From Actinomycetota bacterium (GTDB taxonomy: Bacteria; Actinomycetota; Acidimicrobiia; IMCC26256; PALSA-610): a stretch of DNA of 32,696 nucleotides. Positions 1 to 13,297 of this stretch are shown in pieces. Both the position numbers and the translations under genes were made by a program. Where the stretch lies: the NCBI GenBank assembly GCA_003134555.1, contig PLBO01000124.1, positions 1,730-34,425 of the forward strand, written 5' to 3'. Position 1 is the first letter of the stretch. The number at the start of each line of letters is the position of its first letter. The notes beneath the pieces were generated by a model. The model searched no databases. It saw only the letters and a list, made by a program, of their open reading frames with translations, and was not told the origin of the DNA.

Positions 1-135
1 CGTCGCGAGCCAGTCGCGCGGCGGAACCGGATGATCGGTGACGAAGCACGCGTCGAAGCCCGCCGCCTCGATTGCGAGCGCGCACGTCATCAGCGCGTCG
101 GGCGACGCGACGGGAAGCTCGACGGAGAACTTCAT
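1..135 (-). CDS. Luciferase-like (LLM class) F420-dependent oxidoreductase, N-terminal 45 residues
   Basis: Only the first 45 codons lie in the window; the gene runs off the left edge. The visible peptide starts MKFSVELPV and continues to an FVTDHPVPP stretch, which is the beta1-alpha1-beta2 start of luciferase-like TIM-barrel oxidoreductases (short beta strand, helix with EAAGFDA, then a strand ending in TDHP). Family members reduce or oxidise substrates using F420 or FMN. The ATG overlaps the stop of the upstream crotonase in an ATGA arrangement, so the two are translationally coupled and this is the fifth gene of the minus-strand acyl-CoA operon. The substrate cannot be judged from this fragment. 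Confidence 0.8.
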   Translation of the reverse strand, partial: MKFSVELPVASPDALMTCALAIEAAGFDACFVTDHPVPPRDWLAT

Positions 136-956
136 GCATCCGGTCGCGAGCTCGCGGGCGGCGCCCACCGCGGTTCACGCTTCTCGGCGAAGGCGCGCGG
201 CCCTTCCTCCTGGTCGGGGTGTCCCCACATCGACACGAGCTCCGCGGCGCCGGCCTTGCACGCGTCGGTGAGCCCGAGCTCGAGCGCGGCCCACAGCGCC
301 CGCTTCGTCGCGGCCATCGCCGCGGGCGAGTTGCGGGCGATCTTTTCCGCCAGCGCCTGCGCGACGTCTCGTAGGCGCTCCGGCGGGTCGACCACTTCGC
401 TGATCATGCCGAGCTCGTACGCACGTTGGGCCGACAGCCGCTCGTGGCGCCCGACGAACGCCATCCGCATCACGGCTTCGACCGGCATCTTCTTCATCAG
501 GCCGATGGCCTCGACGGCAACCACCTGCCCGATCGACACATGCGGATCGAAGAACTGCGCGTCGGCCGCGGCGATGACGATGTCGGCGTCGGCCACCCAG
601 TGGAATCCTCCACCCGCGCAGATCCCGTTCACGGCCGTGATCACCGGCTTCCACACGTCGTTGTGCCACGACGTGAAGTGGAGGTCGAACTTCTCGAGCG
701 ACTCGCGGTAGCGCTCCATGCCGCTGCCGTCGGTCGCGATCTCGGTCACGTCGACGCCGGTCTGGAACGCGCGGCCCTCACCGGTGTGCACGATCACCCG
801 CACCTCGGGATCGGCGTCGAGCGCGCGCCAGGCCAGCTCGAACTCGTCGCGCATACGGGCGTTCATCGCGTTCAACTGGTCGGGTCGGTTGTTGATCAAC
901 CAGCCGACCGGCCCCGTGCGTTCGAGGCTCAACGTTTCGAGTCTCGGATACTCCAC
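132..956 (-). CDS. Crotonase-fold (enoyl-CoA hydratase/isomerase family) protein with altered catalytic residues
   Basis: A 274-residue crotonase-superfamily protein, expected to act on a CoA thioester in the cytoplasm. The oxyanion-hole segments are present: GRAFQTGVD near residues 61-69 and CAGGG near 113-117. Aligned by eye to classical enoyl-CoA hydratase, the two catalytic glutamates (in GGGCEL and QPEILLG) are replaced by histidines: GGGFHWV (about H119) and FFDPHVSIG (about H139). It is therefore unlikely to be a standard hydratase; an isomerase, hydrolase or C-C lyase of the same fold is possible. The GTG start at 956 has an AGGA Shine-Dalgarno that overlaps the stop of the upstream acyl-CoA dehydrogenase, six bases away. 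The 3' end overlaps the next gene by ATGA. Family sure, reaction unknown. Confidence 0.88.
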   Translation of the reverse strand: MEYPRLETLSLERTGPVGWLINNRPDQLNAMNARMRDEFELAWRALDADPEVRVIVHTGEGRAFQTGVDVTEIATDGSGMERYRESLEKFDLHFTSWHNDVWKPVITAVNGICAGGGFHWVADADIVIAAADAQFFDPHVSIGQVVAVEAIGLMKKMPVEAVMRMAFVGRHERLSAQRAYELGMISEVVDPPERLRDVAQALAEKIARNSPAAMAATKRALWAALELGLTDACKAGAAELVSMWGHPDQEEGPRAFAEKREPRWAPPASSRPDA

Positions 957-962
957 GCTTCC

Positions 963-2189
963 TCAGCTCCTCGGAACTTCGCGCCAGGGCGCACCCTGCC
1001 ACGGATCGGGCTCACGCGGCAGACCGAGCACCCGCTCACCGACGATGTTCTTGTTGACCTCGGTCGTACCACCCTCGATCGTGTTCGCCCGGCTGCGCAG
1101 CATCCCGCGCACCTCGAGCGGTTGATCAGTCGTCCATGCCATCGCACCCGCGCCCAAGAGGTCGGCCGCGAGGAGTTGGATGCGCTGGTTGAGCTCCCCC
1201 TGGTGCACTTTGCCCACCGAGCTCTCCGGCCCGGGTGAACGCCCGGCCTTCAGCTGCGCGCGCACCCGCTGGTTCGTCCAGTCGCGGATGCGCTCCTCGC
1301 TGAACACGCGCACGAGACGTTGGCGGACGACGGGGTCGCGGTCGCGCCCCGACGCGCGCGCGATCTCGAGCAGGTGCTCGACTCCGCGGCCGCCGATACG
1401 GTCGACACCACCGGAGCCCGCGCCCGAGACCATCTGGCGTTCGCCCGACAGCGTCGCGTTGGCGACCTTCCAGCCCTGCCCGATCTCGCCGACGCGGTAC
1501 GCGTCGGGCACGAGTGCGCGATCGAGGAACACCTCGTTGAACTCCACCTCGCCGCCGATGTGGCGCAGCGGCCGCACCTCGACGCCGGGCTGGTGCAGGT
1601 CGAGCAGGAAGTAGGTGATGCCCTGCCGCTTCGGGACGTCGAGATCGGTACGCGCGAGCAAGATCGCGAAGTCGGAGAAGTGCGCCCACGTGCTCCATAC
1701 CTTCTGGCCCGTGACGCACCACGTATCGCCGTCGCGCTCGGCCCGCGTCGCGAGCGACGCGAGATCCGATCCCGCGCCCGGCTCGCTGAAGAGCTGGCAC
1801 CACTTCTCCTCGTTGCGCACCATCGGCGGCAGAAATCGCCGCCGTTGCTCCTCGGAGCCGTACGCGTACAGCGCGGGCGCGGTGTTGTTCAGGCCCAACG
1901 GGTTGAGCCGACCGAGGTTGAACGGCCGCAACACGACCTCGATCGCGCGCGCGACCTCCGGGGAGAGGTCGAGTCCGCCGTACGCGACCGGCCACGTGGG
2001 CACGACGAGCCCGGACGCCGCGAACACCGGATACCACTCTTCGTACTCTGCCCGCGTGCGGACCACGCGTACCGCCGACGCGCCGCCGCGCCGGCCCGCG
2101 TCGATCCAGGCGCACGGAACGTTCGCTTCGACCCACGCCCGCACCTCGCCGACGGCCGTATCCGCCGGCGTGTCGGCACCGACGTTCAT
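963..2189 (-). CDS. Acyl-CoA dehydrogenase (FadE-like)
   Basis: A 408-residue flavoprotein of the acyl-CoA dehydrogenase family, about the usual length. It would introduce the alpha-beta double bond into an acyl-CoA, passing electrons to ETF. Visible family marks are FSEPGAGSDLASL and TGQKVWSTWAH in the middle beta domain (FAD and substrate contacts) and, near the C-terminus, TIEGGTTEVNKNIVGERVLGLPR. The glutamate of IEGGT sits where medium-chain dehydrogenases carry the catalytic base. The sequence resembles actinobacterial FadE proteins from steroid or branched-acid catabolism more than straight-chain enzymes. The ATG overlaps the stop of the upstream crotonase (ATGA), showing coupling. The substrate is not determinable here. 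Confidence 0.93.
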   Translation of the reverse strand: MNVGADTPADTAVGEVRAWVEANVPCAWIDAGRRGGASAVRVVRTRAEYEEWYPVFAASGLVVPTWPVAYGGLDLSPEVARAIEVVLRPFNLGRLNPLGLNNTAPALYAYGSEEQRRRFLPPMVRNEEKWCQLFSEPGAGSDLASLATRAERDGDTWCVTGQKVWSTWAHFSDFAILLARTDLDVPKRQGITYFLLDLHQPGVEVRPLRHIGGEVEFNEVFLDRALVPDAYRVGEIGQGWKVANATLSGERQMVSGAGSGGVDRIGGRGVEHLLEIARASGRDRDPVVRQRLVRVFSEERIRDWTNQRVRAQLKAGRSPGPESSVGKVHQGELNQRIQLLAADLLGAGAMAWTTDQPLEVRGMLRSRANTIEGGTTEVNKNIVGERVLGLPREPDPWQGAPWREVPRS

Positions 2190-2977
2190 CTCCCCTCGAA
2201 GCGCGGCGCGCGCTTCTCACGAAATGCGGCCATGCCCTCCCGGAAGTCGTCAGTGCGCGACGACAACTCCAGCGCGAACGCCTCGTTCGCGAGCTGCGCC
2301 TGCAACTCGGCGCTCGCACCCGCGTTGAGAAGCCACTTCGTGAGCCCGAGTGCCACCGTCGGCCCGCTCGCCAGCTGGTCGACGACCTCACCGACGGCCG
2401 CGTCGAGCTCCGCACCCGGCACCGCACGATGGATCGCACCCCACTCGGCTGCCTCCGCGCCGCTCAGCATTCGTCCCAGCAGCAGCAGCTCACGCGCGCG
2501 CACCTCGCCGACTCGTCGGGGCAGCAACCAGGTGGCGCCGCTGTCGGGGGTGAAGCCGCGCGCGCCGAACGGCTCCCAGAAGCGCGCGTCGTCGGCCGCG
2601 ATCGTCACGTCGGCCGCAAGTGCGATCTGGAATCCGATGCCGGCGGCCCAACCGCGCACCTTGCAGACCACGGGGACCTGCACGGTGCACAACAACGGGA
2701 TCAGCCGGTGCGCCTGGGTGGGCAGTCGGCGCTGGATACTGCCCGCGCGCGGCTTGCGATCGGCGCGCTCGTTGCGGGCAACGATGTCGGCGCCCGCGCA
2801 GAAATCCTCGCCCACACCCTCGAGCACGACAACGCGCACACTCTCGTCGGTGCCGGCGCCTTCGATGGCGGCGATCAGCTCGAGCATCGTCTCGTCGTCG
2901 ATCGCGTTTCGTTTGTCGGGCCGGTTCAGCCGCAGGGTCAGCGCCCCGCGGTCGTCGCGCAACACGTCGAGACTCAT
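2186..2977 (-). CDS. Enoyl-CoA hydratase/isomerase family protein (PaaG-like active site)
   Basis: A 263-residue crotonase. Oxyanion-hole elements are GEDFCAGADI (about 56-65) and WAAGIGFQIA. The two classical glutamates are absent (Q and F at those positions), but a TPDSGATWLLPRRVG segment (D145) matches the aspartate-based active site of PaaG-like ring- or double-bond isomerases, where this aspartate does the proton transfer. A double-bond isomerase or specialised hydratase is therefore the best guess. The ATG at 2977 overlaps the stop of the MaoC-type gene, and its own stop overlaps the dehydrogenase start, both as ATGA, so it sits in the middle of a coupled beta-oxidation operon. The family assignment is firm and the reaction is inferred. 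Confidence 0.9.
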   Translation of the reverse strand: MSLDVLRDDRGALTLRLNRPDKRNAIDDETMLELIAAIEGAGTDESVRVVVLEGVGEDFCAGADIVARNERADRKPRAGSIQRRLPTQAHRLIPLLCTVQVPVVCKVRGWAAGIGFQIALAADVTIAADDARFWEPFGARGFTPDSGATWLLPRRVGEVRARELLLLGRMLSGAEAAEWGAIHRAVPGAELDAAVGEVVDQLASGPTVALGLTKWLLNAGASAELQAQLANEAFALELSSRTDDFREGMAAFREKRAPRFEGR

Positions 2978-4224
2978 CGGCTCGTGAACTCCTCGGAGAT
3001 CGCGGTCAGCGCGGATTGCAGATCGGAGGCCCCGCCGGGCGGATCGGGCAGCCGCACCGGTCCGCGCACGCGGCTCGGCACGAGGATCGTGGCATGACCC
3101 GGCGTCGTGAGCTCGCCCCGCTGGTTGACGGCCTCGAGCTCGATGTCGACGGCGGGACGATCACCCGCCGCGAGATACGCCCGAGTGATACGGCCCCGCA
3201 GCCATTGCGTGTCGCCTACGTAGTTGAAGCGCCGGAACTCGCAGTCGAGCTTCCACAGCCAGGCGTCGTCGCCCATCCAGTCGGTGCAGAGGTGGACGAG
3301 CCAGGTCTCGCGCATGCGGCCGTAGTCGAAGGTCGTCGGGTTGCCCGACCGGCGCGCGAACTCGGGATCCCAGTGCACGCGTTGCATGACATCGGGGACG
3401 TTGAGGTCGTCACGATGGAAGAAGCGCGGGATACGCATCCGGTTGTCGTGGCCCAAACGCAACGGCTTGACGCCGTACAACCCCATGCCCATACCCGCGT
3501 GCCAACAGACGATGTCGGTGACCGTGAGCGGACCCTTCACCATCGGCCCGACCTCGTCGCCCTCGTGCACGTCCTCGAACCAACGCGGTTCGGCACCCCG
3601 CGGGCGCTCGCGCGCGTACTGGGCGTCGACGTCGGCGATCTGCTCGTCGGTGTACGGATCGATCGTGATCGCGTCGTACTTCTTCTTGGCGCGGGCCTTC
3701 TCCCGTTCGGTCCGCACCATCAGCCGGTACTGACCCGACAGCAGCGCGCCGTTCTCGTCGCGAAAGACCTGGGCGGTCCACTCGTGGATGGCGCGGCCGG
3801 CGAACTCGCTTTCCTTGTCGAGCGCGGCCACGAGCGCGTTACGGCGAAACGTGCGGCGCAACGGGAACAACGGCGACCACCACTCGCGCGCGCTCGCCGC
3901 GTAGAACGCGTGCACGCCTCGCAGCGGGTCACCCTTCATGAGCTCCGCATGCTCGGGCGCGACCGCGTCGACCTCGTCCTCGCCGATCAGCGTGTCGCCG
4001 CCGACGAGTGCCGGCGACGCGATCGACTGCTCCCACCGCGTCTTCGGTCCGTACCCGGGATCGCACCACAACGGGTTGTCGTCGCCGTATGCCACCGCGA
4101 CGTTTCGAAACGTGTCGTGTGTCGGCAGGGTGTAGTGGGGCGGCATCGGGTGCGGCTCGGGAATGCCGATGCGAGCGCGGAGTCGTTCGACACCTTCGTC
4201 GGTGATACGGCCGGCGTCGCCCAT
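2974..4224 (-). CDS. FAS1-like dehydratase / MaoC double-hotdog protein
   Basis: A 416-residue protein with two hotdog halves, probably a (R)-type enoyl-CoA or beta-hydroxyacyl thioester dehydratase. The N-terminal half has a YGDDNPLWCDPGY segment, the FAS1-like variant of the MaoC motif in which tryptophan stands where the catalytic histidine usually is, followed by SPALVGGDTL. The C-terminal half has VHWDPEFA, then NPTTFDYGRMRETWLVHL, then VGDTQWLRGRI, typical of the second hotdog. It is the first gene of the minus-strand operon. A TATCGT -10 box lies nine bases before the ATG, so the transcript is probably leaderless or nearly so. Hydration of a bulky side chain (as in steroid or branched-acid degradation) fits the neighbours but is inference. 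Confidence 0.85.
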   Translation of the reverse strand: MGDAGRITDEGVERLRARIGIPEPHPMPPHYTLPTHDTFRNVAVAYGDDNPLWCDPGYGPKTRWEQSIASPALVGGDTLIGEDEVDAVAPEHAELMKGDPLRGVHAFYAASAREWWSPLFPLRRTFRRNALVAALDKESEFAGRAIHEWTAQVFRDENGALLSGQYRLMVRTEREKARAKKKYDAITIDPYTDEQIADVDAQYARERPRGAEPRWFEDVHEGDEVGPMVKGPLTVTDIVCWHAGMGMGLYGVKPLRLGHDNRMRIPRFFHRDDLNVPDVMQRVHWDPEFARRSGNPTTFDYGRMRETWLVHLCTDWMGDDAWLWKLDCEFRRFNYVGDTQWLRGRITRAYLAAGDRPAVDIELEAVNQRGELTTPGHATILVPSRVRGPVRLPDPPGGASDLQSALTAISEEFTSR

Positions 4225-4233
4225 GCGCCCGAG

Positions 4234-4239
4234 ACGATA
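4234..4239 (-). promoter_or_regulatory. Candidate -10 box (TATCGT) for the acyl-CoA operon
   Basis: TATCGT read on the minus strand fits the actinobacterial TANNNT -10 pattern and ends nine bases before the ATG at 4224. No convincing -35 is seen. It lies in the 48-base divergent space shared with the GT87 gene, so the two promoters are nearly back to back. Confidence 0.45.
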
Positions 4240-4258
4240 CCCGGGCGACCTCGACGCC

Positions 4259-4264
4259 TAGGCT
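4259..4264 (+). promoter_or_regulatory. Candidate -10 box (TAGGCT) for the GT87 gene
   Basis: TAGGCT matches TANNNT and ends eight bases before the GTG at 4273, the spacing expected for a transcript that begins at the start codon. There is no Shine-Dalgarno in front of that GTG, which agrees with leaderless initiation. Confidence 0.5.
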
Positions 4265-4272
4265 GACCGGCC

Positions 4273-5475
4273 GTGAGCCGGGTCGAGACGCAACGCGCGC
4301 GCGGGCCGCGCACCGAAAACGTCCCCGGTGCGATCCTCACGCTCGGCGCGTTGACGCTCGTCGCCGGAGGCGTCCTCGGCGCGATGTGGATGCTCCACCC
4401 GTACGTGCGCAAGTGGGACCTCGCCGATCTCGCCGTCTACCGCGCGGCCGGCCGGGCGGCCCTGCACGGTCATTCCGTATTCGGCTCCTACGTGCACGAT
4501 CAGCTCCGGCTGCCGCTGCCGTTCATCTATCCGCCGTTCGCGGCACTCCTGGCCGCGCCGTTCTCGTGGGTCACCGAGAAGACCGCGAATCTCGCCTGGA
4601 CCACGGTGACGGTCATCATCCTCGCGGCGGTAGTCCGCGTGTGCTTCGCCCCCCTCGTCCGCCGCTTCGGCCGCGCCGCTCCGATCGCGCTCGTGCTGAC
4701 TCTCGCCGCGGTCGTGGCCCTCTCGCCCGTCGAAGACCACCTGCGGTTCGGACAGGTCGGCATCCCGTTGATGGCATGTTGCGTCTTCGACTGCATGGTC
4801 GAAAATCCTCGCTGGCCGCGCGGCGCGCTCATCGGACTCGCGACCGCGGTGAAGCTCGTGCCCGCGATCTTCATTCCCTACCTTTGGTTTTCGGGGCGCC
4901 GGCGCGCGGCGGGCGTGGCCACGGCCACCTTCGGCGCACTCACGTTCATCGGCTTCGTCGTGACGCCCGGCGACTCGTGGGACTTCTTCCACAAGAAGAT
5001 CTTCGAGCCGACGAGTCCCAGCTTCTTCACGAACCAGTCACTCGAAGGCATCCTCCAGCGCGCGATCGGCGGGCCATGGCGCGTGTTCTGGCTCGCGGCC
5101 GTAGTCGTGGTACTGGTCTTCGGCCTCCGCGCGGCAGTGGAAGCGAGCCGGGCCGGCGACGAGCTCCGCGCGGTTGCGATCACCGGACTCGTGAGCGTCC
5201 TCGTGTCGCCGATCTCGTGGATCCACCACCTCGTGTGGGTCGTGCCCGCGATCGCCGTGATCATCGGCGCCGGGCGCAACCGCGCAAACGTCGCGATCGC
5301 CTTCCTCGTCGCCGCGCTGTTCGTCGCCCGGCTGCCCTACTTCGGTCACGACGAGCTGAAGACCGGTCTGCTCGCCGCGTTGCTCAAGGACTCGTACGGC
5401 TTCCTCTGCATCGCGCTGCTCGTCTACCTGGCGCGCCGATCGCGCGCCCGCGCATCGGTTCCCGTCAGCGCGTAG
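4273..5475 (+). CDS. GT87-type (DUF2029) polyprenyl-phosphate-sugar glycosyltransferase, integral membrane
   Basis: A 400-residue polytopic membrane protein with about ten hydrophobic segments, the first at about residues 19-41. After it comes KWDLADLAVYRAAGRAALHG, matching the first extracytoplasmic loop of GT87 enzymes (PimE-like mannosyltransferases), whose aspartate near D49/D52 is the expected catalytic residue. A PFIYPPFAALLAAPF segment follows, also typical. Such enzymes transfer a sugar from a polyprenyl-phosphate donor to a glycolipid or glycan on the outer face of the membrane. The start is GTG with no Shine-Dalgarno but with a TAGGCT -10 box eight bases upstream. The 3' end overlaps the convergent SufR-like gene by 11 bases. 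The acceptor is unknown. Confidence 0.85.
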   Translation: MSRVETQRARGPRTENVPGAILTLGALTLVAGGVLGAMWMLHPYVRKWDLADLAVYRAAGRAALHGHSVFGSYVHDQLRLPLPFIYPPFAALLAAPFSWVTEKTANLAWTTVTVIILAAVVRVCFAPLVRRFGRAAPIALVLTLAAVVALSPVEDHLRFGQVGIPLMACCVFDCMVENPRWPRGALIGLATAVKLVPAIFIPYLWFSGRRRAAGVATATFGALTFIGFVVTPGDSWDFFHKKIFEPTSPSFFTNQSLEGILQRAIGGPWRVFWLAAVVVVLVFGLRAAVEASRAGDELRAVAITGLVSVLVSPISWIHHLVWVVPAIAVIIGAGRNRANVAIAFLVAALFVARLPYFGHDELKTGLLAALLKDSYGFLCIALLVYLARRSRARASVPVSA

Positions 5476-6193
5476 CCGACGCCTTCCGAACCGGCTCGAT
5501 GCGGTACGTGCATCGGCGATCGCCGGCGACGATGTGCTGCGTGCGCTCGACCGACACCTGCGGACCGAGCACCTCACGGAACAACGCGAGCTCCGAGCCG
5601 CACAAGCCCGGACACGCGGCGGCCGCGGTGCAGATCGGGCAGTGGTGCTCGATGAGCAGCACACCCCGGCCGTCGGGGTCGTCCGGGTCGTCGGCCACCT
5701 CGGCCACGTAACCCTCCTCGGTGCGAATGCGGGCGAGCGCCTCGACGCGGGAGCGCAGCGGACCGCGCTTGGGCACCGCGCGCGCGTACGCGGCGCGCTG
5801 CACTTCGCCGCGCGCGTCGATGACCCGCGCGAGACCCTGGTCGCCGAGCGCGGTTCGCACTGCGGTGATCAACTCGACGGTCAGGTCGTCGTGGCGATCG
5901 GGGAAGAGATCCTGCGCGAGGTCGGTGAGGGCCCAGACGGTGGGCGGCCGGCCGCGGCCCTCGGCCGGGCCGGTGCGCGACGCTACGAGTCCGTGGTCGC
6001 CAAGCGCGTCGAGATGCTGGCGCACCCCGGCTTCGGTCATGTCGAGCGCCCGCGCGAGGTCGGACACCTTCGCGTCGGCGCGCTTCAGCCGCTCGACGAT
6101 CCGGCGCTTGGTGGGGCCGAGATTCGCCTGCTCGAGATTCGCCGGTTCGACGTTCCGGGCGGGTATCTGCGGGAGCGTCTTGACGTCGTCCAT
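5465..6193 (-). CDS. SufR-like Fe-S-cluster-binding winged-helix transcriptional regulator
   Basis: A 242-residue DNA-binding protein. Residues 27-90 form a winged helix-turn-helix (LARALDMTEAGVRQHLDAL, then a GRGRPP wing). The C-terminal part has cysteines at about 185, 188, 194, 198 and 228, in HHCPIC...CPGLC and AGDRRCTYRI. This is the pattern of SufR-type repressors that hold a 4Fe-4S cluster and release DNA when it is lost. No suf assembly genes are in view. Instead the gene is divergent from a Rieske protein across 45 bases that hold overlapping promoters and an inverted repeat. A TAATCT -10 eight bases before the ATG indicates a leaderless message, probably autoregulated. Family fairly sure; cluster binding and target are inferred. 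Confidence 0.83.
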   Translation of the reverse strand: MDDVKTLPQIPARNVEPANLEQANLGPTKRRIVERLKRADAKVSDLARALDMTEAGVRQHLDALGDHGLVASRTGPAEGRGRPPTVWALTDLAQDLFPDRHDDLTVELITAVRTALGDQGLARVIDARGEVQRAAYARAVPKRGPLRSRVEALARIRTEEGYVAEVADDPDDPDGRGVLLIEHHCPICTAAAACPGLCGSELALFREVLGPQVSVERTQHIVAGDRRCTYRIEPVRKASATR

Positions 6194-6200
6194 CGGGAGT

Positions 6201-6225
6201 TAGATTATCGCAACAGAACACTTGC
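6201..6225. promoter_or_regulatory. Divergent promoter with SufR-type inverted-repeat operator
   Basis: Two -10 boxes overlap here: TAGATT (6201-6206) reading right toward the Rieske gene and TAATCT (6202-6207, minus strand) reading left, eight bases from the SufR-like ATG. Next to them, 6210-6225 reads GCAACAGAACACTTGC, an inverted repeat with GCAA/TTGC arms. It equals CAAC-N6-CTTG, one base away from the CAAC-N6-GTTG SufR box known from cyanobacteria. It falls on the expected Rieske transcription start and inside the -35/-10 spacer of the regulator, so bound protein could block both promoters. The sequence match is seen directly; function is inferred. Confidence 0.55.
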
Positions 6226-6238
6226 AGAAAGGCTTCGG

Positions 6239-7981
6239 ATGATCGAACAGGCAAACCCGGTCTTCGCAGCCCGGGCCGGGACGCTCACGGAGCTGCAGGA
6301 GGCGGGCCGGCTGGTCACCAAGGTCGGCTCCGTGCCGGTCGTGGTGTTCTGGCACGACGGCGCCGCGTACGCGATCGAGGACCGGTGCCCGCATTTGGGC
6401 TTCCCGCTCCACCAGGGCACGGTCGAGGCCGGGCTCGTGACCTGTCACTGGCATCACGCGCGCTTCGATCTCGTGTCGGGATGCACGCTCGACATGTGGG
6501 CGGACGACGCGCGCGGCTTCGAGGCCACGGTGCGCGACGGTGACGTGTTCGTCGAACCGCGCGCCGACGACGACCCGATCGGGCATCTGCAGGCGCGCCT
6601 GCGCAACGGCCTCGAGGAAGGGATCACGCTGGTCGTCGCCAAGTCGGTGCTCGGTCTGCTCGACGCGGGCGTGAGCCCGGCCGACATCGTGCGGACCGGG
6701 GTCGACTTCGGCACGACGTACCGAGGCGCGGGATGGGGCGCGGGCCTCACCGTCCTCGTCGCGATGGCGAACCTCTTCCCCCACCTCGACGGCGACGACC
6801 GCGCGCTCGCGCTCGTGCACGGCCTCGCGTTCGTCTCGAACGACACCGGCAATCAGGCGCCACGCTTCCCCGTCGGTCCCCTGCCGACGCAGGCGGTGCC
6901 GATGACGCGCCTCGCCGGGTGGTACCGACGCTTCGTCGAGACCCGCTCGAGCGATTCCGCCGAGCGCACGCTCGAGACCGCGCTCACCGATCCTTCCCGT
7001 CTGGCTGCGGTCGAGGCAACGATGTTCGCCGCCGTCACCGATCACGTCTTCGTCGACGGTGGGCACACGATCGACTTCACGAACAAGGCCTTCGAGGCGC
7101 TCGACCTGTTGGGATCCGATGCGGCCGGCCAAGTTCTCCCGACGCTCGTCTCCCAAACCACGCGCGCGCAACGCTCGGAGGAATTCTCGGAGTGGCGTCA
7201 CCCGCACGATCTCGTCGCGCTGGCCGCCGAGACCGCGGCCCGGGTACAGGGACCGGCCCCGGCCCGGGCGGCTGGTATCGACGTCGGCGCGATCGGGTGG
7301 CAGCTTCTCGGCGACGAGCCCCACGCGGTCGCCGACGCGTTGGTCGACGCGTGGTTGGCGGGCGCGACCGATGAAGAGCTGGGACGCGCGCTCGCGTACG
7401 CGGCAGCATTGCGCATCGTTCGCTTCCACACCCGCAACGATCACGCCGACTGGGACACGGTGCACCACTCCTTCACGGCCGCGAACGCACTGCACCAGGC
7501 GCTGCGCCGCAATCCCACGCCGGAGCTGCGGCGAGCGGCCGTGCACGCGGCGCTGCGCATCTATCTCGACCGCTTCCTCAACGTCCCACCGGCGCGCCTG
7601 CCGCAGACGACGCACGGCAGCATCGAGGCGATGAACCGCTGCTTCGACGCCCAGGGAATGATCGACGAGGCCGCGAACGAGGCCTATGGCTTCTTGAAGG
7701 CGGGCGGTTCCCGAGCTGAGTTGATCGCCGCGCTCGGTCACGCGCTGCTCGTCGAGGACGCCGGGTTCCACTGGTTCCAGACCGTCGAAGCCGGCGTGCG
7801 CCAGGCGACCGCGTGGCCCGAGGGCTCCGAAGAGTCGGCGCTGATCCTCGTCGGCATCGCGCGCTTCCTCGCCGCGCACACACCGACGCGCCGCGAGCTC
7901 CCGACCGTCGTCCGCATCGCCGCGCGCCTACGCCGCGGCGAGGCCCTCTACGAAGACGACGAAGGCGGCGACGGGAACTAG
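6239..7981 (+). CDS. Rieske [2Fe-2S] protein with large uncharacterised histidine-rich C-terminal domain
   Basis: A 580-residue protein. The first about 100 residues are a Rieske ferredoxin domain with ligands C50-x-H52 and C69-xx-H72 (DRCPHLGFPLHQG and VTCHWHHARFDL). The remaining about 470 residues are mostly alpha-helical and unfamiliar, with histidines in VDGGHTIDF, EWRHPHDL, RFHTRNDHADWDTVHHSF and GHALLVEDAGFHWF that could bind a metal or cofactor. The closest resemblance I can suggest is to questin-oxidase-like (DUF4243) oxygenases, weakly. No signal peptide or membrane segment is seen, so the protein is cytoplasmic. The ATG at 6239 has AGAAAGG six bases upstream; longer upstream frame is rejected because it overlaps the regulator. 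Likely an oxidoreductase fed with electrons through its own Rieske centre and controlled by the adjacent Fe-S regulator. Confidence 0.85.
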   Translation: MIEQANPVFAARAGTLTELQEAGRLVTKVGSVPVVVFWHDGAAYAIEDRCPHLGFPLHQGTVEAGLVTCHWHHARFDLVSGCTLDMWADDARGFEATVRDGDVFVEPRADDDPIGHLQARLRNGLEEGITLVVAKSVLGLLDAGVSPADIVRTGVDFGTTYRGAGWGAGLTVLVAMANLFPHLDGDDRALALVHGLAFVSNDTGNQAPRFPVGPLPTQAVPMTRLAGWYRRFVETRSSDSAERTLETALTDPSRLAAVEATMFAAVTDHVFVDGGHTIDFTNKAFEALDLLGSDAAGQVLPTLVSQTTRAQRSEEFSEWRHPHDLVALAAETAARVQGPAPARAAGIDVGAIGWQLLGDEPHAVADALVDAWLAGATDEELGRALAYAAALRIVRFHTRNDHADWDTVHHSFTAANALHQALRRNPTPELRRAAVHAALRIYLDRFLNVPPARLPQTTHGSIEAMNRCFDAQGMIDEAANEAYGFLKAGGSRAELIAALGHALLVEDAGFHWFQTVEAGVRQATAWPEGSEESALILVGIARFLAAHTPTRRELPTVVRIAARLRRGEALYEDDEGGDGN

Positions 7982-7997
7982 ATGGCGAGCTGTCCGG

Positions 7998-8507
7998 CTA
8001 GCCGCCGCCGAGGTCGACCGCGTACGCCTCGTACACCAGATCGGCGCCGCGCTGGCGGTGCCGCGCCAGTGCCGCGAGCAGCGACGTGAGCTCGACGCGC
8101 AGATCCTCGGCCCAGGAGACGTAGGCATCGTCTTCGGTCGCGGGCGTCACGAGACGCTTCTCCGCGCGCACGATGGTTGCGAGGATGTCGCTGTGCTCGC
8201 GGCGCAGACGGGAGGCCGGAGTAGAGAGCCGCGGGGCCTCGGTGACCAGCTCGTCGAGGAACGCGCCCGGCGCCTCGGTCTCGACGATGTGGCGCGTCCA
8301 CACCTCGTGGACGATGTTCAACGACTCGCGTACGTGCATCACCCACTCGGCCCGATTCGCGAACGGCGCGGCGAGCGCGAGCTCGAGGCCGCTGAGTGCC
8401 GCCTTCAGGCCGGCTCGACGCAGACGCACGTCGTCGAGTGTCGGTAACAGATCCTGCGTGTCCGTACCTGCGCCCATAGCGCTGTCGAAATTGCGGTAGC
8501 GAGCCAA
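7998..8507 (-). CDS. Hemerythrin-like (HHE-type) four-helix protein, putative
   Basis: A 169-residue, largely helical soluble protein. The spaced motifs HEVWTRHIVETE (about 67-78), RLRREHSDIL (about 100-109) and LARHRQRGADLVYEAY near the C-terminus follow the H...HxxxE...H...HxxxxD/E rhythm of hemerythrin-type domains, which bind a di-iron centre for oxygen or redox sensing. The resemblance is by eye only. The start is TTG at 8507, chosen because a perfect AGGAGG (8515-8520 on the minus strand) stands seven bases in front; no ATG or GTG is better placed. The 3' end faces the Rieske gene 16 bases away. Proximity to two iron proteins makes an iron or oxygen role plausible but unproved. Confidence 0.7.
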   Translation of the reverse strand: MARYRNFDSAMGAGTDTQDLLPTLDDVRLRRAGLKAALSGLELALAAPFANRAEWVMHVRESLNIVHEVWTRHIVETEAPGAFLDELVTEAPRLSTPASRLRREHSDILATIVRAEKRLVTPATEDDAYVSWAEDLRVELTSLLAALARHRQRGADLVYEAYAVDLGGG

Positions 8508-8577
8508 TGCCGGACCTCCTGGGGAGGGCTAGTCCGCCGACGGTACGCCGAAAATCTGCCCTTGACCAGTGGCGTGC

Positions 8578-9576
8578 CTACCCGGATGCAAGGGGTCGCA
8601 AGCCCGGAAGGACCTTTGCCGCGAACAGCTCCAGGCTCGACCAGGCGAGCGCGGCGGGAAGGCCGCCCGCGAGCGGGTTGAAGACGATGCCGCCCTGGGC
8701 GGGCACCTCTCGAAGGCGGGCCAACACGTCTTCCGGTGTGCCGACGACGTATTGGGGGGAGGCCTTCAGGTCGTCGACCGAGGTCGCGTGGATGCCGGGC
8801 GTCGAGTGCTGTCCCGGCGTCTGGAACGACGCGTAGGTCTGCGCCTCGTAGAGCACGTACTTCCCGATCTCCGCCCACGCGCGCTCGGGATCGTCGGCCA
8901 CGTGCACGAAAGTGGGACCGACGGGTTGCAGCACAAAACCGCGGTCGAAGCCGATCTTGCGCGCCTCTTCGAAGTACGCGTCGCGCACCGAGGCGTCCGA
9001 GTTCATCGGGAACATCGCGAGCCGCAACCGCGCCGCGCGCCGCGCGGCCGCGGGCACACCGCCGCCGACGAACAGCATCCGGCGCGGATCGGTGACGGGC
9101 TTCGGCGTGACCCGCACCTCGCGTCCACGCCATTCGAAAGACTCCCCCGACAGTGCCTCGAGCACGACGCCGACGTGCTCTTCGAGGATGCGACCGCGCG
9201 CCGCGTGCTCCAAGCCCGCCATGTCGAACTCTTCGACGCGGTAGCCGGCGCCGAACACGACCCACATCCTTCCGGGGAACGCATTGTCGAGCACCGCGAT
9301 CTGCTCGGCGACGCGGATCGGATCGTGCAGCGGCAGGATCGCGGCACTGATCATGAGCCGGGCGTTCGCGGTGCGCGCGAGCACCGCGGCCGCCATCGTG
9401 AGCGGGGCGGGAAGCCAGCCGTCGTCGACGCCGTGATGCTCGGAGAGCACGAGCGAGTCGAAGCCGTGGCCGTCGGCCCACGCGAACTGCTCGAGCGCGG
9501 TCGCGTAGATCTCCGGCAACGACTCGGGCGCGAACGCCGGGGCGCGGAAGTCGTGCCGCATCGAGAGGAACGCCAT
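8578..9576 (-). CDS. LLM class F420/flavin-dependent oxidoreductase (luciferase-like monooxygenase)
   Basis: A 332-residue single-domain TIM-barrel protein of the bacterial luciferase family. Supporting segments are GFDSLVLSEHHGVDDGW near residues 39-55 (the SEHH motif after beta2), ARTANARLMISAAILPLHDPIRVAEQ in four-strand region, AVLDNAFPGRMWVVFGAGYR and later MLFVGGGVPAAARRAARL. The family uses FMNH2 or F420 for monooxygenation, desulfonation or hydride transfer. A strong GAAGGAGG Shine-Dalgarno stands just before the ATG at 9576. The gene follows another luciferase-like gene by 12 bases, and both follow an aldehyde dehydrogenase, suggesting that an oxygenase product is taken through an aldehyde to an acid. 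Which cofactor is used cannot be read from the sequence. Confidence 0.9.
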   Translation of the reverse strand: MAFLSMRHDFRAPAFAPESLPEIYATALEQFAWADGHGFDSLVLSEHHGVDDGWLPAPLTMAAAVLARTANARLMISAAILPLHDPIRVAEQIAVLDNAFPGRMWVVFGAGYRVEEFDMAGLEHAARGRILEEHVGVVLEALSGESFEWRGREVRVTPKPVTDPRRMLFVGGGVPAAARRAARLRLAMFPMNSDASVRDAYFEEARKIGFDRGFVLQPVGPTFVHVADDPERAWAEIGKYVLYEAQTYASFQTPGQHSTPGIHATSVDDLKASPQYVVGTPEDVLARLREVPAQGGIVFNPLAGGLPAALAWSSLELFAAKVLPGLRPLASG

Positions 9577-9588
9577 GGAAACCCTCCT

Positions 9589-10545
9589 TCAGGCGAGAGG
9601 AGCGCGTACGAGATGGGGCCCGACCTCGGCGCCGAACGCTGCGATCTGGTCGCAGTGCTCGTTGGCGTCGCGGGCGAACAGGCGAACCTGGAGATGGGAG
9701 ACGCCGATCGCACCGAGCCGTGTGTTCGCGAACTCCGCGATGCGATCGGGCGAGCCGTGCATCACACCCTTCGGCAGGTCCCACGTCGGCTCACCCACGT
9801 GCGCGACGAGGTGGTAGCCGATCTCCGGAACCGCACCCGGCCGCACGCGATCGCGCTCGCGCAGGATCGTCGCGATGTCGGCGGGGAGCTGGTCGAGCGG
9901 CGTCGCCTGGGGGATCCAGCCGTCGGCCATCGTCGCGACCCGGCGGAGCGCGGGCTTGCCCGAGCCGCCGATCCAGATCGGCGGATGCGGTTGTTGCACC
10001 GGACGCGGCCGCTGCCCGACCTCGCCGGTCGAGTCGGGCCCGGTCCACTCCTCGGTGAGCGCCGCGGCGATCGTCGCCAGCGCGTGATCGGTGAGCTCGC
10101 CGCGCTTCGCGAACGAGACCCCGAGCGCGTCGAACTCACCTTCCACGTGTCCCGCGCCGATGCCGACGATCGCGCGTCCGTTCGACAAGACGTCGAGCGT
10201 GGCGAACGCCTTCGCGGTGGTGAGCGGCGCTTGGTAGGCGGCGATGAAGACGTTCGACATCAACCGCGTGCGCGTGGTGTGCGCCGCGAGGTAGGCGAGC
10301 GTCGCGATCGGGTCGAACCACTGCGTCGACATCATCTCCGCGGGTTCGCGCGGGATGGCGACGTGATGGCACACGGCGACGTAGAGGAATCCGGCGGCGT
10401 CGCACGCTCGTGCGACGCGGACCATGTCGTCGACCGTTGCGTCCTGCTCCCAGGGCATCGACACGCGCACTGAAAGCGCCTGCACCGGGAGCTGCATGCC
10501 GTAGGCGAGGACGCCGTCGGGTACGACCGAGACCGTTCCCGTCAT
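9589..10545 (-). CDS. LLM class F420/flavin-dependent oxidoreductase (second copy)
   Basis: A 318-residue luciferase-like TIM-barrel protein, distinct from its neighbour rather than a recent duplicate. The N-terminus shows ACDAAGFLYVAVCHHVAIP, the helix and strand ending in CHH, with AYLAAHTTRTRLMSNVFIAAYQAPLTTAKAFATLDVLSNGRA compressed in the typical order. GIGAGHVEGEFDALG and PPIWIGGSGKPALRRVATMADGW are the cofactor and phosphate-side loops of F420-dependent members. The ATG at 10545 lies ten bases after the aldehyde dehydrogenase stop with no clear Shine-Dalgarno; translation is probably coupled. The pair of luciferase-like genes side by side could form a heterodimer or act on successive substrates. 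The substrate is unknown. Confidence 0.9.
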   Translation of the reverse strand: MTGTVSVVPDGVLAYGMQLPVQALSVRVSMPWEQDATVDDMVRVARACDAAGFLYVAVCHHVAIPREPAEMMSTQWFDPIATLAYLAAHTTRTRLMSNVFIAAYQAPLTTAKAFATLDVLSNGRAIVGIGAGHVEGEFDALGVSFAKRGELTDHALATIAAALTEEWTGPDSTGEVGQRPRPVQQPHPPIWIGGSGKPALRRVATMADGWIPQATPLDQLPADIATILRERDRVRPGAVPEIGYHLVAHVGEPTWDLPKGVMHGSPDRIAEFANTRLGAIGVSHLQVRLFARDANEHCDQIAAFGAEVGPHLVRAPLA

Positions 10546-10555
10546 CCGGGCCCGA

Positions 10556-12013
10556 TCACCCGGGCCACACGACCGACTGGAGATCGGTGTACGCGTGGAG
10601 GCCGAACATGCCGCCGTCGCGGCCGACCCCGCTGAACTTGGTGCCGCCGAACGGGGTGTTGTGGTTGCGCTGGGTCGTGTTGATCCCGATGTTCCCGGCG
10701 CGCAACCGCTTGCTCGCTCGGAACGCCTTGTTCGTGTCGGTGCTGAACACGTAGTCGTAGAGGCCGAAGTCGGTTCCGTTCATGAGCGCGATGCCTTCGT
10801 CCTCGTCGTCGAACGGCAGCACGACGATCACCGGCCCGAAGATCTCTTCCTGCACGACCTTCATGTCGAGCCGGCAGCCGGCGAGCAACGTGGGCGCGAC
10901 GTAGTAACCGGTTTCGGGCTTCTCCGGCCTCTGGCCGCCCGCGACGACCTCCGCGCCTTCGCGGCGGCCCGCCTCGACGTAGCTCTCGACGCGATCGCGG
11001 TGCGCGGCCGTGATCACCGGTCCGAGGACGGTGTCGGGCTCGTACGGGTCGCCCACCTTCAGCATGTTGGCCATCTTCGTGAGGCCGGCGACGACCTGTT
11101 CGTAGACACCGCGCTGCACGATGGCGCGCGTCGGTGCGGTGCAGATCTGACCCGAGTGGAACGTCCACGTAGAGCCGATCATCCCGATCGCGGTCTTGAG
11201 ATTCGCGTCGTCGAAGACGAGCGCGCCACCCTTGCCGCCCAGTTCGAGCAGCAGGCGCTTCATCGTGCGACCACCGACCTCGCCGATCCGCGTCCCGACT
11301 CCGGTCGAACCGGTGAACGACACCATGTCGATGTCGCGCGTCGCGACCAGCGCTTCACCGGTGACGGGAGTCGAGCCGGTCACGACGTTGACGACACCCG
11401 GCGGGAAGCCGACGTCGTGCATGATGCGCACGAGCTCGATGACCGCGAGCGGGTTCTGCGAGGCGGGCCGCACCACGACCGTGTTGCCCATTGCGAGCGC
11501 GGGCCCGAGCTTGCCGGCCATGTTCACGACCGGGAAGTTGTACGGGGTGATCGCGGCGACGGCACCGACGGGCTGGCGCCGCGCGATCGCACCCATCAAC
11601 CCGCCCGGCGCCAGCGCGGTCGCGGGCATCTCCATCGGCGCGAGCGGGATCACCGGCGATTCGTGCGCGAGCCGCGCGTACGTCTCGAAGCGAACGCGGG
11701 CCTGCGGAACCTGCATCTGCTTGCCGACCGTCGCCGTGCAACCGGTCTCCGCGATCACGAGCGGCAGCAAGGTGTCGAACTGGTCGCGCATCGCATCGGC
11801 GGTCTTCTGCAGCAGCTCGGCGCGCACGTCGGGCGAAGTCTGCGACCACGCCGGGAAGGCCTCCTGGGCCGCGCGAGCCGCGTCGAGCGCCTGGCGCTCG
11901 GACGCCTCGGGCGCGACGCCGACGACCTCTTCGGTCGCCGGATTCACGACGTCGTAGCCGCCGTCAGCACCGTCGATCCACTCCCCGCCGACCAAGAGCT
12001 GAGGTGTCGTCAT
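10556..12013 (-). CDS. NAD(P)-dependent aldehyde dehydrogenase
   Basis: A 485-residue member of the ALDH superfamily, full length, cytoplasmic, oxidising an aldehyde to the acid. Active-site elements are present: TPYNFP with the catalytic asparagine (about N159), LLELGGK with the general-base glutamate (about E257), and HSGQICTAPTR with the nucleophile (about C291). One oddity is VVVRPAS where most members have K-P-S/A, so the lysine contacting the cofactor ribose or phosphate is arginine. The ATG at 12013 has no Shine-Dalgarno; a TACAGT -10 box ends eight bases upstream, and an AACGCGTT palindrome abuts that box. The gene appears to begin its own unit, followed by the two luciferase-like oxidoreductases. 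Confidence 0.94.
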   Translation of the reverse strand: MTTPQLLVGGEWIDGADGGYDVVNPATEEVVGVAPEASERQALDAARAAQEAFPAWSQTSPDVRAELLQKTADAMRDQFDTLLPLVIAETGCTATVGKQMQVPQARVRFETYARLAHESPVIPLAPMEMPATALAPGGLMGAIARRQPVGAVAAITPYNFPVVNMAGKLGPALAMGNTVVVRPASQNPLAVIELVRIMHDVGFPPGVVNVVTGSTPVTGEALVATRDIDMVSFTGSTGVGTRIGEVGGRTMKRLLLELGGKGGALVFDDANLKTAIGMIGSTWTFHSGQICTAPTRAIVQRGVYEQVVAGLTKMANMLKVGDPYEPDTVLGPVITAAHRDRVESYVEAGRREGAEVVAGGQRPEKPETGYYVAPTLLAGCRLDMKVVQEEIFGPVIVVLPFDDEDEGIALMNGTDFGLYDYVFSTDTNKAFRASKRLRAGNIGINTTQRNHNTPFGGTKFSGVGRDGGMFGLHAYTDLQSVVWPG

Positions 12014-12021
12014 GAGCCGGA

Positions 12022-12034
12022 ACTGTAACGCGTT
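12022..12034 (-). promoter_or_regulatory. ALDH promoter -10 (TACAGT) with abutting AACGCGTT palindrome
   Basis: On the minus strand TACAGT (12022-12027) ends eight bases before the ATG at 12013. The perfect 8-bp palindrome AACGCGTT (12027-12034) overlaps its first base. In the wider form TGTAACGCGTTCTC it fits the core AAC-NN-GTT of TetR-type sites such as KstR boxes, with one flanking mismatch. Position between -35 and -10 suits a repressor. The regulator is not identified. Confidence 0.45.
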
Positions 12035-12053
12035 CTCTTTTCGCGGACCTCTT

Positions 12054-12076
12054 CGGCGGGCCTCAGCCGACCGCCG
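12054..12076 (-). terminator. Possible GC hairpin after the amidohydrolase gene
   Basis: CGGCGG (12054-12059) pairs with CCGCCG (12071-12076), with a small inner GGC/GCC stem. It lies ten bases past the amidohydrolase stop and before the ALDH promoter. There is no T tract, so it is not a classical intrinsic terminator, and hairpins of this strength are common in DNA this rich in G and C. Confidence 0.3.
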
Positions 12077-12085
12077 CGGCCCTGG

Positions 12086-13297
12086 TCAGGAGCCGAGTTC
12101 GAGATGGAGCATCTCGATCGCGTTGGTGCGGCAGATCTTGTCGACCTGCTCCTGGGTGAGATCCTTCATGATCTCCTCCGCGACCTTCTTCGTGTGCGGC
12201 CAGGTGGAGTCGCTGTGCGGGTAGTCGGTCTCGAAGGTGACGTTGTCGACGCCGACCGCGTCGAGGTTCTTCAAACCGTGCGGATCGTCGAAGAAACAGC
12301 CGTAGACGTGCTCGTAGTAGTACTCCGAAGGCGGGCGCATGACCTTGTCGGCGACCCCGCCCCAGCCGCGGTTGTCCGCCCACACCTTGTCGGCGCGCTC
12401 GAGCACGTAGGGGATCCAACCGATCTGACCCTCGCTGTACGCGATCTTCAGCCGCGGGAACTTCTCGAACAGGCCCGACATCAACCAGTCGGTGAGCGAC
12501 ATCGCCGCGTTCATGTAGGTGAGCGTGCTCCCGACCGCCGCGGGCGCGTCGGCCGACGTCGACGGCATCTTCGACGAGGAGCCGATGTGCATGCACACCA
12601 CCGTGTCGGTCTCTTCGCACGCGGCGAGGAACGGATCCCAGAAGCCGCCCGCGTCGTGCATCGACGGCAGTCCGAGGAACGCCGGGATCTCCGAGAACGT
12701 CACCGCGTGGTTTCCGCGCGCCGCGTTGCGCCTGATCTCCGCGGCCGCGAGGTTCGGGTCCCACAGCTGCACGATGACGAGGGGGATGAGACGCCCGTTC
12801 GTGCCGGCGCACCATTCTTCGACCATCCAGTCGTTGTAGGCCTTGACGCAGAGATCGCCGAGCACCCGGTCCTTGCGCTCCGTGAAGGTCTGCCCGCAAA
12901 AGCGCGGGAAGCTCGGGAACGCGAGCGACGCCTCGACGTGGTTCACATCCAGGTCTTCGAGGCGCGCCTTTTGGTCCCAGCAGCCCTTGCGCATGTCGTC
13001 CATCGTGATCGGGCTGACAGTGATCTCGTCACGCGGGTAACCGGCCGCCGCCGACAATCGGGTGAGCGGGTACTGGAGGTCTTCGATGAGCCACCAGTCG
13101 CACCACAGTCCGTCTTCGTTGTCGCCGGCCTCGTCGTAGCTGAACACGCCCCCGACGAACTTCATGTTCTTCACCTTGCGGCGAACGATGCGCGGCCCGA
13201 TCGCCTTGTACTTCTCGGGTAGGCGGTCCTGCCAGACGTTCGGCGGCTCGATCACGTGATCGTCGACGGAGATGATGCGAGGGATCTGCGGCGCCAT
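12086..13297 (-). CDS. Amidohydrolase family 2 metal-dependent hydrolase/decarboxylase
   Basis: A 403-residue TIM-barrel protein of the ACMSD-like amidohydrolase group, which hydrolyses or decarboxylates ring-derived acids using a Zn or Mn ion. The N-terminal metal motif appears as SVDDHVIEPP (residues 10-19, D-D-H instead of the common D-x-H-x-H). VVCMHIGSSS supplies the mid-barrel histidine, and FETDYPHSDSTWP near residues 356-368 carries the metal-binding aspartate with the usual DYPH context. The ATG at 13297 follows a TAGCCT -10 box by seven bases with no Shine-Dalgarno, suggesting a leaderless message separate from the isochorismatase-like gene 48 bases upstream. The C-terminal fragment at the right edge of the window belongs to the same family. 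Substrate unknown. Confidence 0.9.
   Translation of the reverse strand: MAPQIPRIISVDDHVIEPPNVWQDRLPEKYKAIGPRIVRRKVKNMKFVGGVFSYDEAGDNEDGLWCDWWLIEDLQYPLTRLSAAAGYPRDEITVSPITMDDMRKGCWDQKARLEDLDVNHVEASLAFPSFPRFCGQTFTERKDRVLGDLCVKAYNDWMVEEWCAGTNGRLIPLVIVQLWDPNLAAAEIRRNAARGNHAVTFSEIPAFLGLPSMHDAGGFWDPFLAACEETDTVVCMHIGSSSKMPSTSADAPAAVGSTLTYMNAAMSLTDWLMSGLFEKFPRLKIAYSEGQIGWIPYVLERADKVWADNRGWGGVADKVMRPPSEYYYEHVYGCFFDDPHGLKNLDAVGVDNVTFETDYPHSDSTWPHTKKVAEEIMKDLTQEQVDKICRTNAIEMLHLELGS

Follow-up and report, generated by a model that had tools for sequence, protein, structure and literature searches.

A SufR-like regulator and a Rieske-fusion protein share a divergent promoter with a conserved palindrome in an Acidimicrobiia genome

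The divergent locus and its palindrome

The window, i.e., the whole analysed stretch of 32,696 nucleotides of an Actinomycetota genome, contains a gene for a SufR-like regulator and, divergent from it, a gene for a protein with an N-terminal Rieske domain. The gene coordinates (Table 1) confirm the preliminary description of this DNA, in which the two genes were said to share a compact divergent promoter of 45 bases. Genes at 132–13297 look catabolic (enoyl-CoA hydratase, acyl-CoA dehydrogenase, luciferase-like monooxygenases, aldehyde dehydrogenase, amidohydrolase). In another genome (L082, G110), a homologue of the regulator is encoded about 1 kb away from genes for two enzymes, an aldehyde dehydrogenase and an amidohydrolase, that resemble the window's by eye.

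Table 1. Genes, predicted promoter elements and palindromic sites. Positions are those of the window unless a contig is given.
Feature	Position	Strand	Remark
SufR-like regulator gene	5465–6193	minus	242 aa
Rieske-fusion gene	6239–7981	plus	580 aa
Divergent intergenic gap	6194–6238		45 bp
−35 TTGACG, predicted Rieske promoter	6180–6185	plus	within the initial codons of the regulator
−10 GATTAT, predicted Rieske promoter	6203–6208	plus	17-bp spacer to −35
Extended −10 TGC-GATAAT, putative regulator promoter	6212–6204	minus	judged by eye
GAAAGG, ribosome-binding site of the Rieske gene	6227–6232	plus	from sequence
Putative operator TATCGCAAC-AGAACA-CTTGCAGAA (zero-mismatch site 1)	6206–6229		single palindrome over both promoters; regulator/Rieske promoter
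Operator half-sites	CAAC 6211–6214; CTTG 6221–6224
Zero-mismatch site 2	C118:76636–76659		ahead of SDR gene and QueA-like gene
Zero-mismatch site 3	C121:53103–53126		start of MFS exporter

On the plus strand, TTGACG-N17-GATTAT (6180–6208) is the sole promoter-like match in 6050–6350, where 0.0 were expected, and transcription of the Rieske gene is expected to start near 6214–6217, inside the palindrome. The opposite −10 boxes proposed earlier, TAGATT (6201–6206) and TAATCT (6207–6202), do overlap; however, the best plus-strand promoter is the one given above instead. On the minus strand, TGC-GATAAT was judged by eye to be at least the equal of TAATCT, and a transcript starting from it would have a leader of a few bases only before the ATG. 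Since the predicted start site of the plus strand lies within the palindrome, which also extends into the minus-strand −10 and spacer, one bound dimer could block both genes.

The inverted repeat GCAACAGAACACTTGC is present as claimed, at 6210–6225. It had been called a near-consensus SufR box, which holds in part: CAAC-N6-CTTG is there, but the box of this family is CAAG-N6-CTTG and not CAAC-N6-GTTG, and the one-mismatch match to the latter is not significant alone. The window contains 10 such one-mismatch sites against a mean of 7.24 expected, i.e., not above chance, and we rejected this match as evidence by itself. What appears to give the putative operator its significance, judging from sequence, is comparison across genera and not the match to the SufR consensus. 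The family consensus, TNNNNCAAG-N6-CTTGNNNNA, spans 24 bp, and the family palindrome occurs with zero mismatches at a single site of the window. A weight matrix made from other genera only (21 boxes, none from the genus of the window, but chosen by their core, so that the matrix is not blind) scored this site at 24.2 bits and the next best in the window at 7.4; in simulated sequence totalling 3 Mb it found no site of at least 18 bits. The window copy has a degenerate left half-site, CAAC, facing CTTG on the right; two loci of the same genus (L009 and L010) have CAAT as the left half-site.

Conservation of the box and relation of the regulator to SufR

Searching the class for the Rieske protein yielded orthologues that keep the divergent regulator (L007–L017). 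The regulator/Rieske intergenic regions of other genera share the 24-bp consensus, with shuffle p mostly ≤0.03. Lack of conservation in orthologous pairs would have counted against the idea; the repeat is conserved, so the idea stood. Several loci carry two copies of the box, 41–45 bp apart, and the upstream copy overlaps TTGAC, which may be a −35. In one case (L064) the outer arms alone are retained.

A later sample came from a scan of named genomes, in which L211, L212 and L219 repeat earlier genomes while L215 and L216 are new. The box scores 24–36 bits in all five of these loci, where the Rieske orthologue adjoins the regulator, and exceeds 12 bits in none of the ten orthologues without an adjacent regulator (L213, L214, L217, L218, L220–L224 and L265); identity is at least 54% in both groups. 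In cyanobacteria, three loci (L271, L252 and L242) have the Rieske enzyme near a SufR-like gene whose product is 40–44% identical to the window's regulator, together with paired palindromes of the TAAAG-N6-CTTTA type, 46–48 bp apart. Boxes of this type are also found in L254, whose genome contains the paralogue. At L242 the regulator gene follows downstream of the Rieske gene under a promoter of its own; both promoters carry a box pair, which links the box to each gene and not to a shared gap alone.

The regulator has an ArsR-type winged helix at about residues 27–73, with R58-Q59-H60-L61 as the recognition helix. It had been described as SufR-like, and the cyanobacterial SufR equivalog model TIGR02702 indeed matches it along nearly its whole length (114.6 bits, E 5e-33), below the curated cut-off of 178.8 bits. 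True cyanobacterial SufRs score 292–345 bits, and actinobacterial SufRs adjacent to sufB score 77–116 bits. As the latter also fall under the cut-off, we regard this threshold as a cyanobacterial one. A PDB sequence search returned no solved SufR structure.

In the trees, the regulator groups in one clade (99/99) with regulators found next to the Rieske gene in Acidimicrobiia and cyanobacteria, some other members being PALP-adjacent. Cyanobacterial SufR (100/100) and sufB-adjacent actinobacterial SufR (100/97) form separate clades; the trees separate these clades without fixing the branching order among them. The regulator is not a SufR recruited away from suf, but a paralogue branching apart from both actinobacterial and cyanobacterial SufR. 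All four cyanobacterial genomes with the paralogue also hold a true SufR, and four further cyanobacteria have the true SufR alone.

The resemblance to known SufRs (Synechocystis sll0088, M. tuberculosis Rv1460 and Streptomyces avermitilis SufR) is nevertheless extensive: an ArsR-type winged helix followed by a C-terminal cysteine domain, three cluster cysteines common to both, a frequently divergent target with likely autoregulation, and a 24-bp palindrome with an N6 spacer and the same outer flanks (TTNCGCAA...TTGNGAAA). The differences lie in the clade and its two extra cysteines, in the targets, which here are candidates outside suf, and in the recognition code. Nearly all sufB-adjacent SufRs have an RRHL helix and boxes of the CAAC-N6-GTTG type, whereas the regulator's clade has RQHL (RLHL in L067) and CAAG-N6-CTTG boxes. 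This covariation of helix and box, drawn from few independent lineages, supports direct recognition.

The five C-terminal cysteines mentioned in the preliminary description are all present (C185, C188, C194, C198 and C228). Three of them, C185, C198 and C228, are invariant across 28 aligned homologues with the spacing C-x12-C-x29-C, and correspond to the cluster-ligand cysteines C203, C216 and C244 of Rv1460, spaced C-x12-C-x27-C (PMC6034842). The winged helix and the three cysteines that mark SufR (C-x12-C-x27/28-C) are therefore both found here. C188 and C194 are kept in Rieske-adjacent members of the clade, cyanobacteria included, and are absent from SufR. The regulator of L215 belongs to a different clade and is without C188 and C194.

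The Rieske-fusion protein and further candidate targets

Residues ~8–111 of the divergently encoded protein form a Rieske [2Fe-2S] domain (PF00355, E 1e-13) with the C-x-H...C-x2-H pattern, C50-x-H52 and C69-x2-H72, all four residues being invariant. Its fold resembles that of the Rieske ferredoxins of dioxygenases (Z ~15.8). Like the Rieske non-heme iron oxygenases, the protein joins an N-terminal Rieske domain and a catalytic-looking domain in a single chain. Pfam and NCBIfam, however, gave no match past the Rieske domain, and the canonical oxygenase catalytic domain was not found: residues 141–553 are modelled as an all-helical domain (mean pLDDT 88) resembling BTG13. Fold comparison matched this domain to the questin oxidase BTG13 (7y3w; Z 17.5, 325 residues, rmsd 4.3, ~10% identity, with the caveat that helical folds inflate Z), to an Aspergillus non-heme iron dioxygenase (8yxs; Z 16.3) and to the hydroquinone dioxygenase PaD (8z4r; Z 15.0). 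The window's domain differs from these three in its low identity, in being fused to a Rieske domain and in its occurrence in bacteria and archaea. A profile search returned Rieske matches and chance matches only, so the link to BTG13 comes from the fold comparison.

BTG13 binds its iron via histidines and a carboxylated lysine. H269, H276, K283 and H410 of the window's protein do not vary in relatives with as little as 27% identity, and would fit a BTG13-type metal site. From the modelled fold and these residues, the protein is likely a Rieske ferredoxin fused to a dioxygenase domain of the BTG13/questin-oxidase type. Relatives occur in halophilic archaea, Bacillota, Chloroflexota, cyanobacteria and on plasmids, and are named "Rieske (2Fe-2S) protein" where annotated; the family thus looks widespread in bacteria and archaea under records that say just "Rieske protein".

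Scanning the 4.63-Mb genome with TWNNNCAAS-N6-STTGNNNWA returned exactly three zero-mismatch sites (Table 1). It had been proposed that the regulator controls a single Fe–S enzyme, which is at odds with the two further perfect boxes, one at an operon that pairs an SDR gene with a QueA-like gene, the other at an MFS exporter. Only one SufR-like protein was found in this genome, the window's regulator, so that it is the natural candidate at each of the three. The SDR–QueA box recurs in six more genomes (L154, L155, L157, L160, L162 and L163); no full box was found in five other such operons (L156, L158, L159, L161 and L164). The box of the exporter is present again in L207 and L210, with no full box in the orthologues L208 and L209. 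Some of the box-bearing SDR–QueA operons have no SufR-like gene that we could find alongside, and QueA-like operons elsewhere in the phylum adjoin a SufR-like gene of their own. The QueA-like protein of the C118 operon scores under the QueA cut-offs. This operon (L147 2382–4160; G000, contig C118) has a near-perfect CAAG-N6-CTTG palindrome upfront. Two other candidate boxes were rejected: C113:137200 looks like the operator of the adjacent TetR-type gene, and C79:816 lies inside a coding sequence.

The statement that there are no suf genes here is true of the surroundings of the locus, but the genome does have suf genes, sufBD included, on contig C83, away from the window's contig. No box was found at the sufB promoters of this genome and its relatives (18 loci, a few of them truncated). 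Titles and abstracts of the literature on SufR with Rieske or queA targets contained nothing relevant.

Proposed regulation and alternatives

We propose, with a probability of roughly 0.7, a self-regulating divergent promoter at which a dimer of a SufR sister represses both genes from one palindrome, with a regulon of three, an Fe–S signal and an oxygenase as target. A regulator dimer would bind the palindrome at 6206–6229 and, to judge from its position, repress the Rieske gene and its own gene; the same regulator would also control the SDR–QueA-like operon and the MFS exporter. The signal would be an Fe–S cluster that is lost or altered in response to stress (iron, oxygen, NO or redox). The divergent target would be a self-contained oxygenase, with a Rieske ferredoxin and, from fold and invariant residues, a putative BTG13-like non-heme-iron dioxygenase domain. 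The sequence establishes how the genes are arranged, that the box exists and is conserved, that it lies on both promoters and that it tracks with the regulator; autorepression by the regulator is well supported on the same footing.

Fe–S sensing by the regulator may be assumed from its cysteines: the C-terminal domain keeps the three [4Fe-4S] cysteines of SufR plus two that are clade-specific, hence cluster loss or change is most likely the signal. In SufR, cluster loss is reported to relieve repression (PMC13421787). The same derepression here would induce an Fe–S enzyme during Fe–S shortage, an awkward logic that makes a substrate-sensing domain a serious, if improbable, rival. According to this alternative, the same box is bound, but the C-terminal domain is a V4R/Bet3-like sensor of a small molecule, perhaps the aromatic substrate or product of the oxygenase, and the cysteines hold a structural metal, e.g., zinc. 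In Foldseek, the regulator model matches, among others, Bet3 (E 5e-5) and the aromatic sensor domain of the phenol sensor MopR (E ~1e-3), an oxygenase and an exporter among catabolic neighbours would suit substrate sensing, and the induction paradox would disappear. However, the three invariant cysteines are spaced as in SufR, no V4R Pfam match is obtained at E 0.01 while TIGR02702 matches strongly, and SufR, which contains this same domain, does bind a cluster. The paradox would also be avoided if the cluster served to sense oxygen or NO.

It could also be argued that the regulator is simply the SufR of this genome, chiefly controlling suf in trans, with the Rieske gene incidental. It is the best TIGR02702 match of the genome, no other SufR was found, and suf genes do exist on C83. 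We rejected this explanation, and consider it very improbable, in view of the boxless sufB promoters here and in relatives (18 loci, a few truncated), the separation from the sufB-adjacent SufR clade and the cyanobacteria that hold paralogue and SufR side by side. Least credible of all is that the repeat is a chance match within an AT-rich promoter gap and no operator. About seven one-mismatch CAAC-N6-GTTG sites are indeed expected in the window, and conservation within the genus alone could stem from the promoter and the first codons of the regulator; yet a 24-bp palindrome kept across genera that tracks the regulator is difficult to reconcile with chance, and the later sample already contradicts it.

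Returning to repression by an Fe–S-sensing SufR sister, we hypothesize, at odds only slightly better than even, that the regulator represents an undescribed family. Its members would share a five-cysteine sensor motif, HCPIC-x5-C-x3-C...C, and an RQHL/CAAG-N6-CTTG code (TAAAG-N6-CTTTA in cyanobacteria), would have been tied for long to the Rieske–BTG13-like fusion in Acidimicrobiia and cyanobacteria, and would control a small regulon (the QueA-like/SDR operon and an exporter) beside or without SufR. In one review, SufR is presented as a regulator dedicated to the suf locus (PMC8593673). If the hypothesis is true, a sister family with non-suf targets and a shifted half-site would make the SufR design a sensor platform of broader use. 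It would also provide a defined specificity switch, in which R becomes Q in the recognition helix and C becomes G in the half-site, and a first entry point to the regulation of a Rieske-fused oxygenase that is widespread but uncharacterised.

Other homologues have different neighbours. In L083–L085, L087 and L088, a PALP-type (cysteine-synthase-like) enzyme is encoded close to a homologue of the regulator from the same clade, with a box in L084, L087 and L088 and none found in L083 and L085. Two clade members (L089 and L090) sit in what appears by eye to be a folate/pantothenate gene cluster, with five cysteines and no clear box. In L092 (3091–4035), a CAAG-N6-CTTG palindrome lies between a SufR-like gene of the QueA-type clade and the divergently oriented gene of a DUF6687 protein. 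Finally, a distant RQHL homologue (L189, G027) has hybrid half-sites like those of the window, TTTACCAACTTCCGCCTTGCGGAA.
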